DNA from: Formosa sp. Hel3_A1_48
Lineage (GTDB): Bacteria > Bacteroidota > Bacteroidia > Flavobacteriales > Flavobacteriaceae
DNA length: 64,000 bases
NCBI RefSeq assembly: GCF_001735715.1
Contig: NZ_CP017259.1
Span: 62,001 to 126,000 of the forward strand
Direction: 5' to 3'
The notes under the pieces were generated by a model that saw only the letters and a program-made list of their open reading frames with translations, did not search any database and was not told the origin of the DNA. Below, piece after piece: positions 11,435 through 14,916 of this stretch (its first letter is position 1; every line of letters begins with the position of its first letter). Made by a program: the position numbers and the translations under genes.

Positions 11435-11593
11435 AGCGATTGGGGTTGCTTTTGCTGATCATTTCTGAAAAGCCCAGTTAATATTTATAAAATTTGTTTA
11501 ATTACATAATTAAAATGTTAGACAATTCATTGTTTTTCAGTGATTTAAATATACATTTTTTTGAAAAATAAAAAAATAAATACTACTTAAAAT

Positions 11594-11625
11594 AAAAAAA
11601 CGATCAAAATTGATCGTTTTTTTAT
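11594..11625 (-). terminator. Rho-independent terminator after lpdA
   Basis: Inverted repeat with core CGATCAA (11601-11607) and TTGATCG (11610-11616), extended by A and T runs to a stem of about 14 bp with a 2-base loop. It lies 20 bases past the lpdA stop in its direction of transcription and ends in a T run on that strand. The rest of the 11435-11644 gap is AT-rich with nothing recognisable. Confidence 0.75.
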
Positions 11626-11644
11626 TGAAGAAAATACTTTTTCA

Positions 11645-13107: not shown

Positions 13108-13566
13108 CTAAATATTTAGGGCAGTTGTGTGCTTCACTTCATTGATCATGAACATACTGTGTGTACTCCCAATATGATTTAAATTTGTGAGTTTTTCAAT
13201 CATAAATTTTCGATAAGATTCCATGTCTTTTACATGAACCTTGAGCAAGTAATCATAATCACCACTTAGGTGATAACATTCCAAAACCTCATCAATAGCA
13301 ATCACTTCACGTTCAAATTGCTTTACGTTATCTTGGGTGTGCTGTACAAGTTTCACATGACAGAATGCTACAAAAGATTTATCTACTTTTTCTTTAGAGA
13401 CTAAAGCAACATATCCTTGAATAAAGCCCGTTTTTTCAAGTTTTTTGATACGTTCGTACACAGCGGTTACAGAAAGTGCTAAATTTGCAGAAAGCGCTTT
13501 ATTTGTTAATTTAGCGTCTTTTTGTAAGAGGCGTAAAATTTTCAAGTCTATTTCGTCGAGTTTCAT
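13108..13566 (-). CDS. Lrp/AsnC-family transcriptional regulator
   Basis: 152 residues, the standard Lrp length. The N-terminal winged helix-turn-helix (LDEIDLKILRLLQKDAKLTNKALSANLALSVTAVYERIKKLEKTGFI, about 2-50) binds DNA, and the RAM domain (about 65-145) with LSGDYDYLLKVHVKDMESYRKF binds an amino acid and forms octamers. It is divergent from the PLP-dependent Cys/Met lyase gene, the same layout as Pseudomonas mdeR-mdeA, so the inferred role is amino-acid-responsive control of that lyase and of itself. A perfect 17-bp inverted repeat overlaps its -7 box. Confidence 0.92.
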   Translation of the reverse strand: MKLDEIDLKILRLLQKDAKLTNKALSANLALSVTAVYERIKKLEKTGFIQGYVALVSKEKVDKSFVAFCHVKLVQHTQDNVKQFEREVIAIDEVLECYHLSGDYDYLLKVHVKDMESYRKFMIEKLTNLNHIGSTHSMFMINEVKHTTALNI

Positions 13567-13600
13567 ATTGAAAAAAAATCATGATTAAGTTAAATATTGT

Positions 13601-13608
13601 CAAAAATA
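13601..13608 (-). promoter_or_regulatory. -7 promoter box of the lrp-like gene
   Basis: Complementary strand TATTTTTG, 34 bases before the ATG at 13566. It is embedded in one arm of the 17-bp inverted repeat, so a protein bound to the repeat would cover it. Confidence 0.5.
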
Positions 13609-13639
13609 TAAATTTTTTGTCTAAAAAATTTATATTTTT
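13602..13639. promoter_or_regulatory. Perfect 17-bp inverted repeat, candidate Lrp operator
   Basis: The left arm (13602-13618) and right arm (13623-13639) are exact reverse complements over 17 bases, separated by GTCT. It lies midway between the divergent lrp-like and lyase genes. The left arm contains the lrp -7 box on the minus strand, and the right arm contains TATTTTTA, a one-mismatch -7 box facing the lyase gene. The position suits an operator controlling both genes. It is built only of A and T, so chance and DNA-bending roles must be kept in mind. A terminator role is unlikely because it stands upstream of both genes. Confidence 0.6.
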
Positions 13640-13722
13640 AGATTTATTTTCTATTTAAATAAATATTCATTGTTTTTATGTCATAATTTTTAGTTATTTG
13701 ACTTAAAATAATCATAATTATT

Positions 13723-14916
13723 ATGAAACCAGCAGACTTCATTCAAGACTTACAGTATTTCGGTGAATTTGGAGGAATAAATCCTTCCATTTCTGATTCT
13801 TCAACCTACACCTTTCTGTCCGCTAAAACCATGTTTGACACTTTTGAAGGCAACGCAGACGGTTGTTATTTGTATTCAAGACATAGCTCCCCGTCAAACC
13901 TTTACTTAGGAGAAGCATTGGCTGCAATGGAAGGAACAGAGACTTCAAATGTATCAGCTTCAGGAATGGGCGCAATAACAGCCGTACTCATGCAGCTGTG
14001 TGCGGCTGGAGATCATATCGTATCGAGCCGAACAATATACGGAGGCACCTACGCTTTTCTAAAAAACTTTACACCTAAACTTAATATTAAAACAAGTTTT
14101 GTTGATATTACAAGTCTTAAATCAGTTGAAGCCGCGATTACAAGTCAAACAAAAGTGCTTTACTGTGAGTCTGTAAGCAATCCGCTTCTTGAAGTCGCTG
14201 ATATTGAAGCCCTTTCAGTAATTGCTAAAAAACACAACCTTCAACTTGTTGTTGACAACACCTTCTCCCCTTTATCCATTTCGCCAAAACAGCTTGGTGC
14301 AGATATAATTATTCATAGCCTAACAAAATTTATCAATGGCGCAAGTGATACAATTGGAGGTGTGGTATGTGGCACACAGGAGCTCGTAGATAACTTACGT
14401 AATGTAAACGATGGAGCTGCAATGCTTTTCGGAGCTACAATGGACAGTCTACGCGCGGCGTCTATTCTTAAAAACTTAAGAACTTTACATATAAGAATGA
14501 AACAACACAGTGCCAACGCCATGTATTTAGCAAAGCAATTTGAATCTTTAGGCGTCAAAACTGTATATCCTGGACTAGACACACACCCTTCACATAATGT
14601 GTTTAAACGCCAAATGAATACAGAATTTGGGTATGGCGGCATGCTAACTATTGACGTTGGAACACTTGAAAAAGCCAATGCCTTGATGGAGTTAATGCAA
14701 GGGAAAAATTTAGGGTATTTAGCGGTTAGTCTTGGTTTTTATAAAACGCTCTTCAGCGCACCAGGATCGTCTACATCTTCCGAAATTCCTGAGGATGAGC
14801 AAAAGGAAATGGGCTTAAGCCCAGGACTGATTCGCTTTTCTGTTGGATTGGATAATGATATTAAGCGAACATTCAAATCAATGAGCGCTTGTATGAAATC
14901 TGTGGGCGTACTTTAA
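13723..14916 (+). CDS. Cys/Met-metabolism PLP-dependent lyase (methionine gamma-lyase type)
   Basis: 397 residues, the normal length for the family. The PLP-binding Lys is K202 in IHSLTKFINGASDT; the other family landmarks are the SRHSSPSNLYLGEALAAMEGTE stretch, the SASGMGAI phosphate-binding turn, the VDNTFSP aspartate that pairs with the pyridine nitrogen, and LIRFSVGLD near the C-terminus. Members cleave or form C-S bonds (methionine gamma-lyase, cystathionine gamma-synthase/lyase, O-acetylhomoserine sulfhydrylase). The divergent Lrp gene suggests a catabolic methionine gamma-lyase, but the Cys of the YGCT motif of classic methionine gamma-lyases is Gly here (YGGTY), so specificity is open. 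Confidence 0.85.
   Translation: MKPADFIQDLQYFGEFGGINPSISDSSTYTFLSAKTMFDTFEGNADGCYLYSRHSSPSNLYLGEALAAMEGTETSNVSASGMGAITAVLMQLCAAGDHIVSSRTIYGGTYAFLKNFTPKLNIKTSFVDITSLKSVEAAITSQTKVLYCESVSNPLLEVADIEALSVIAKKHNLQLVVDNTFSPLSISPKQLGADIIIHSLTKFINGASDTIGGVVCGTQELVDNLRNVNDGAAMLFGATMDSLRAASILKNLRTLHIRMKQHSANAMYLAKQFESLGVKTVYPGLDTHPSHNVFKRQMNTEFGYGGMLTIDVGTLEKANALMELMQGKNLGYLAVSLGFYKTLFSAPGSSTSSEIPEDEQKEMGLSPGLIRFSVGLDNDIKRTFKSMSACMKSVGVL

Follow-up and report, generated by a model that had tools for sequence, protein, structure and literature searches.

The window, by which we mean the whole 64,000-nt stretch of Formosa sp. Hel3_A1_48 DNA that was analyzed, belongs to a genome of one 2.0-Mb contig and contains two divergent genes separated by a 156-bp gap. 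The gene on the minus strand encodes an Lrp/AsnC regulator, with domain matches to PF01037 (5.3e-23), PF13412 and PF13404 and a best PDB match to 2gqq, the leucine-responsive regulatory protein (8.5e-32). The gene on the plus strand encodes a PLP enzyme of Cys/Met metabolism. These matches agree with the first-pass annotation, which had named the neighbors as an Lrp regulator and a Cys/Met lyase, and which had described in the gap between them a perfect inverted repeat.

13108-13566, minus strand: Lrp/AsnC regulator, 152 aa, HTH and RAM domains (domain and structure matches)
13602-13639 (arms 13602-13618 and 13623-13639), no strand: perfect inverted repeat (dyad), present, not conserved
13723-14916, plus strand: Cys/Met metabolism PLP enzyme, 397 aa (family match)

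The PLP enzyme matched 59 NCBIfam models and stayed below the curated cut-off in every one of the 25 shown, and against the methionine gamma-lyase (MGL) equivalog TIGR01328 it scored 290.4 bits, short of the cut-off of 549.7. Its YGGT motif carries a Gly where the four compared structure chains have other letters; wild-type MGL has Cys115/116 at this position. Because the enzyme lies below the MGL cut-off and has Gly in YGGT, the part given to methionine in the earlier proposal is not supported by these two tests.

A perfect A/T-only repeat between divergent genes

The sequence bears out the exact reverse-complement arms around GTCT that were first described: each arm is 17 nt, the two are 100% complementary, the spacer is 4 nt (GTCT), and the arms consist of A and T with no G or C. 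First-order shuffles of the intergenic region gave a perfect repeat with arms of at least 17 and a loop of at most 8 in 3 of 20,000 cases. Three such repeats were present in a 444-kb genome sample that included the window, namely the dyad and two others (near 11607 and in locus L159), in which A and T runs enclose a core containing G and C and which resemble terminators by eye. The dyad is more than local composition predicts, but it was picked by a reader scanning the whole window.

We rejected the dyad as an intrinsic terminator on account of its arms without G or C and its position between divergent starts. It is also absent from the output of the terminator scan, a weak argument since that output does not include the likely lpd terminator either. 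The perfect repeat near 11607 (11590-11627) directly follows the end of the minus-strand lpd gene and has a CGATCAAAATTGATCG core with A and T runs on either side; it is probably the lpd terminator, and the scan, which covered the region, does not list it.

Conserved sites and putative promoters in the gap

The regulator had a match at E ≤ 0.001 in 49 of 60 relatives and at E ≤ 1e-45 in 263 of 397 genomes of the family; within the genus, 8 of 11 genomes had one, the window's own included. We examined 135 regulator loci, of which 30 (own included) came from the search of 60 relatives and 25 and 80 from the family search, the 80 being picked, with some skipped, from the best-scoring matches listed. 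A divergent lyase was found automatically in 116 of the 135 and was also present in 7 more, whose short Lrp fragment had initially scored too low to pass, for a total of 123. The remaining 12 were L005, which ends with its contig, six loci with other neighbors (L015, L047, L053, L063, L115 and L127), and the paralogues L029-L033. After 4 of the 116 were dropped beforehand for longer gaps, 112 gaps of 140-195 bp from 82 genera were aligned. Two of these (L025 and L027) are from another family of the order, and the alignment background is 42% A and 41% T.

The alignment revealed sites of a common form, G-N9-C around an AT-rich center, with three full sites and one weaker half-site, together with a putative promoter of the lyase. 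A -7 box of lrp is listed with them.

13568-13582, center 13575, no strand: Lrp-type site 1, G13570-N9-C13580 (family form GAAAAwTTTTC); G and C both in 100 of 112
13608-13601, minus strand: lrp -7 box, TATTTTTG, in the left arm of the dyad
13609-13623, center 13616, no strand: Lrp-type site 2, weaker, half-site TCTA with C13621; C in 103 of 112
13639-13653, center 13646, no strand: Lrp-type site 3, TAGATTTATTTTCTA, strongest palindrome, G13641/C13651; G and C both in 99 of 112
13670-13684, center 13677, no strand: Lrp-type site 4, G13672-N9-C13682; G and C both in 106 of 112
13670-13700, plus strand: putative lyase promoter, -33 TTG (13670-13672), 20-bp spacer, -7 box GTTATTTG at 13693-13700 (112-gap alignment)

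Site 1 lies just upstream of the lrp start codon. Site 2 lies inside the dyad, and its partner G, ten bases before the C, occurs in 30 of 112 relatives and is A in the window. When one genome per genus was counted, both G and C were present at sites 1, 3 and 4 in 73, 73 and 76 of 82, and at site 2 in 16 of 82. The spacing from C to C was 41 in 88 of 96 (sites 1-2), 31 in 93 of 95 (sites 2-3), and 31 in 98 of 98 (sites 3-4), or about four, three and three whole helical turns. The window itself has spacings of 41, 30 and 31, the stretch between sites 2 and 3 (13621-13651) being one base shorter than in most relatives.

We scored the array with a profile that was trained on the family it scores, except in the half-versus-half, outside-genus and named-genome tests. 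With held-out halves, 111 of 112 gaps exceeded the best of 2,000 shuffles; L027, when held out, scored -2.3, below the shuffle maximum. A profile trained outside the genus gave the window 39.3 in total, with site 3 alone at 18.3 bits. Enough upstream DNA was available at 76 of 80 loci from named genomes, 20 of which had been used before and 56 of which had not been used for the profile. Each of the 56 unused loci beat the shuffle maximum (3.4), with a lowest score of 6.1 and a median of 42.9; many of them are near relatives of used loci. The Lrp relatives in the named genomes were 66-98% identical, plus one at 64 and one at 63, and belonged to Flavobacteriaceae (Winogradskyella, Lacinutrix, Bizionia, Formosa etc.) or to unclassified Bacteroidetes/Flavobacteriales.

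A model search of the genome from which the window comes returned one clear match, the lrp-lyase gap (E 2.5e-5), with the next at E 0.027; 150 of 3,173 first-look candidates were scored, and single sites would be missed by this search. Four of the five next matches were inside ORFs, and the other was weak (13.2 bits, E 0.19) and lay between long ORFs, upstream of one. Because there is only one clear array in this genome, the regulator looks local rather than global.

In Bacteroidota, sigma-A promoters have a -33 TTG that is separated from the -7 box by 17-23 bp. Both the TTG and the 20-bp spacer of the lyase promoter were conserved in 112 of 112 gaps, while the -7 box followed nAnnTTTG in 76 and the strict TAnnTTTG, a box given in PMC9723704, in 2. 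The main text of that paper makes no mention of Lrp or AsnC. The window's lyase -7 box (13693-13700) departs from the relatives at one position, where 93% of them carry A and it carries T. Site 4 and the -33 element overlap, the G of the site being the G of TTG. On the other side of the gap, the lrp -7 box lies between sites 1 and 2, where CAAAnnTA occurs in 30 of 112 relatives, at several offsets, against 7.0 expected. The evidence for the lrp -7 box appears weaker than that for the lyase promoter.

The first-pass annotation had placed the lrp -7 box in one arm of the dyad, where we also find it, and in the other a near -7 box directed toward the lyase. The letters of the latter are present in the right arm but show no conservation; the conserved putative lyase promoter lies 31-61 bp downstream of that arm. 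It had also suggested that, if the dyad were the operator, both arms should be kept among relatives while the flanks vary. We ran this comparison and the arms did not behave in this way. The dyad was broken in 7 of 7 genus relatives that were readable there, the six full members keeping 4-10 of 17 pairs and the seventh being the closest sister, L005. Over the 111 aligned relatives the mean was 6.95 of 17 pairs (the median of all 112 rows was 7), about the same as in a control with six slid axes (means 5.6-6.8, medians 6-7); the best relative, L062, kept 14 of 17. In L005, whose Lrp is 98% identical and whose contig is cut, the left arm is letter-identical and the right arm is different. No locus fetched from any other genome contained the exact dyad, and as far as seen it appears private to the Formosa sp. 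Hel3_A1_48 species.

Since the dyad is broken in the genus relatives, the sister and the other fetched loci, we rejected it as the operator. It could be argued that the repeat is rarer than local composition predicts and sits between both promoters, and that it acts as the operator itself, perhaps as a species-specific improvement of site 2. We give this little credence, as the repeat extends over site 2 and shares one base, the first, with site 3 while its axis (13620.5) centers neither, and its arms lack the G and C that the conserved sites have. Most probably the dyad arose in this species alone, as a by-product of drift in the A/T tracts that span site 2 and the spacer leading to site 3. 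We also considered whether the right arm might be a template-made copy of the left. The left arm persists in the sister, and the right arm in the window's species is one base short, but by eye the two species differ over the remainder of the gap as well and outgroups match neither right arm.

Association of the array with the regulator

The array score reached a maximum of 3.4 in 1,000 shuffles, with a 99% limit of -7.0. A close Lrp stands beside the lyase in 123 loci, and every one of them scored above 3.4 (minimum 8.1), both the 116 automatic pairs and the 7 loci with an initially missed Lrp fragment (37.5-58.4). As a control, we looked for the lyase where a close Lrp match was lacking, in 103 genomes (23 and 80), and obtained 25 loci (9 and 16). 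The 18 lyase orthologues that had no Lrp in the locus and usable upstream DNA were all at shuffle level (-51.1 to -7.6). Two control loci, L177 and L181, were set aside because they had too little upstream DNA. In a further one, L169, a 73% identical Lrp is cut by the contig end and the array scored 54.7. Where a more distant Lrp (39-44%) stands beside the lyase, the scores were 2.7 (L170), -6.6 (L171), -21.6 (L178) and -4.9 (L191), a poor fit, as if regulator and sites had diverged together.

Six close Lrp genes have no adjacent lyase, and five of them keep the array (L015 34.4, L047 54.2, L053 63.4, L063 52.5, L115 17.6). In L015, L047, L053 and L063 the Lrp adjoins an operon whose genes encode an FMO-like flavoprotein, an additional PLP lyase and an OsmC-like protein, the families of which were tested on the copy in L194 (L063 genome); L047, L053 and L063 thus keep the array despite another partner operon. 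We observed this operon, with its second Cys/Met PLP lyase, behind the same Lrp array in family genomes (L192-L195). The FMO-like flavoprotein was not found in the window's genome. In two genomes, genes lie between Lrp and lyase and there are two arrays, one at the Lrp and one at the lyase: 16.7 and 34.4 bits in the L015 genome (L195), and 24.6 and 36.1 bits in the L115 genome (L197). The sixth gene, the 64% Lrp orthologue of L127, has no array beside it (-31.5), and in its genome the array is found upstream of the FMO-like gene only (L196, 20.4 bits). Because this orthologue lacks an array at its own gene, the predicted autoregulation is not universal.

These data bear on whether the conserved islands represent promoter and start-region sequence rather than regulator sites. 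Site 4 does share its TTG with the -33 element and site 1 is right at the lrp start codon; yet sites 1-3 lie outside the lyase promoter and still have the common G-N9-C geometry (site 2 in part) and helical spacing, the array is missing from 18 of 18 lyase orthologues without Lrp, and two arrays occur where genes separate Lrp and lyase. We therefore regard a promoter-only origin as improbable.

The window's genome has three further Lrp-like proteins, and the sites have a general Lrp shape, so another regulator, either a paralogous Lrp or a global factor, might bind the array and just happen to go along with the locus. This too seems unlikely. Genus relative G001 has distant Lrp paralogues, yet its lyase has no array (L173, -7.6), and the regions upstream of the three paralogues in the window's genome scored -11.5, -31.0 and -24.0. 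Paralogous Lrps elsewhere (L029-L033, 44-47%) had no or weak arrays (-21.1 to 6.9). Two of them, L030 and L031 (about 45%), gave weak array-like scores of 6.9 and 0.8 in the same register near the start codons. Taken together, the loci in which the array is absent, has swapped partners, or is present twice provide the strongest evidence that the sites would belong to the neighboring Lrp and that the enzyme genes would be its targets.

A predicted Lrp operator and its place in the family

We consider it highly likely that the neighboring Lrp has its compact operator, a four-site array, in the lrp-lyase gap, so that the gap would very probably serve as a shared switch of a familiar type. The outline of the original proposal, a shared operator for autoregulation and lyase control, very probably holds in this form, with four sites that go with the Lrp; the dyad as its element does not. 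Our reading is that a dedicated local Lrp would control the lyase and usually itself, and we infer both its binding and the repression from the arrangement of the sites. Four dimer sites would face the same side of the helix, and one octamer (four dimers) or four cooperating dimers may wrap about 115 bp (13568-13684). Binding of the neighboring Lrp to the four sites would block both promoters: site 4 lies on the lyase -33 TTG and sites 1 and 2 lie around the lrp -7 box, which points to repression of both, the overlap of site 4 with the -33 element suggesting it for the lyase. A small amino acid at the RAM domain might then alter the complex so that the lyase promoter is released. Activation by rearranged binding in one ligand state is also possible.

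Lrp dimers are described in the review PMC2995911 as binding imperfect palindromes of 13-17 bp that are clustered two or three helical turns apart, with wrapping of the DNA. The archaeal FL11 and Ss-LrpB complexes covered there likewise have clustered imperfect palindromes in helical phase, with DNA wrapped around dimers or an octamer. In the array described here, by contrast, the site sequence differs, the spacing is 41, 31 and 31 in most relatives (41, 30 and 31 in the window), sites 1 and 2 being about four turns apart rather than the two or three of the review, and wrapping is a proposal. The E. coli Lrp consensus sequences, yAGhAwATTwTdCTr and AGAATwwwATTCT (quoted in PMC5554404), have the same G-N9-C dyad with an AT-rich center; by eye, site 3 fits 12 of 15 positions of the first, although its center differs (TTTAT). 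Unlike E. coli Lrp, which is a global regulator, the Formosa regulator has only one clear array in its genome.

Local Lrp/AsnC regulators often control a divergent gene, as stated in PMC8707732, which names AsnC of E. coli, BkdR and MdeR of P. putida, PutR, and PA2577 of P. aeruginosa as regulators likewise divergent from their targets across a shared intergenic control region. The Formosa locus differs from these in its fixed-spacing four-site array, kept across many Flavobacteriaceae, and in its predicted target, either a Cys/Met PLP enzyme or, as some genomes have it, the FMO-like/PLP-lyase/OsmC operon. Within the literature on Lrp/AsnC, methionine gamma-lyase, Flavobacterium promoters and mdeR-mdeA, taken largely from outside subscription journals and seen in part, no paper on this operator was apparent.

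A striking private repeat is thus replaced by a testable operator kept in the 82 genera of our sample, and the repeat serves as a warning that perfect symmetry in a promoter very rich in A and T does not have to mark an operator. The predicted operator is ordinary in kind, well supported by the comparison of genomes, and useful for testing. A site consensus is now available for an Lrp-type regulator of Flavobacteriaceae, and the loci with absence, partner swap or two arrays serve as natural experiments that tie the sites to the regulator. We lean, by a small measure, toward the broader view that this is an undescribed, dedicated sulfur-amino-acid Lrp of Flavobacteriaceae that would act through one main switch per genome by way of an octamer-sized four-site array. 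Such a switch would be a portable module, duplicated or handed to another operon (FMO-like oxidase, second PLP lyase, OsmC-like protein) upon rearrangement and lost together with its regulator.
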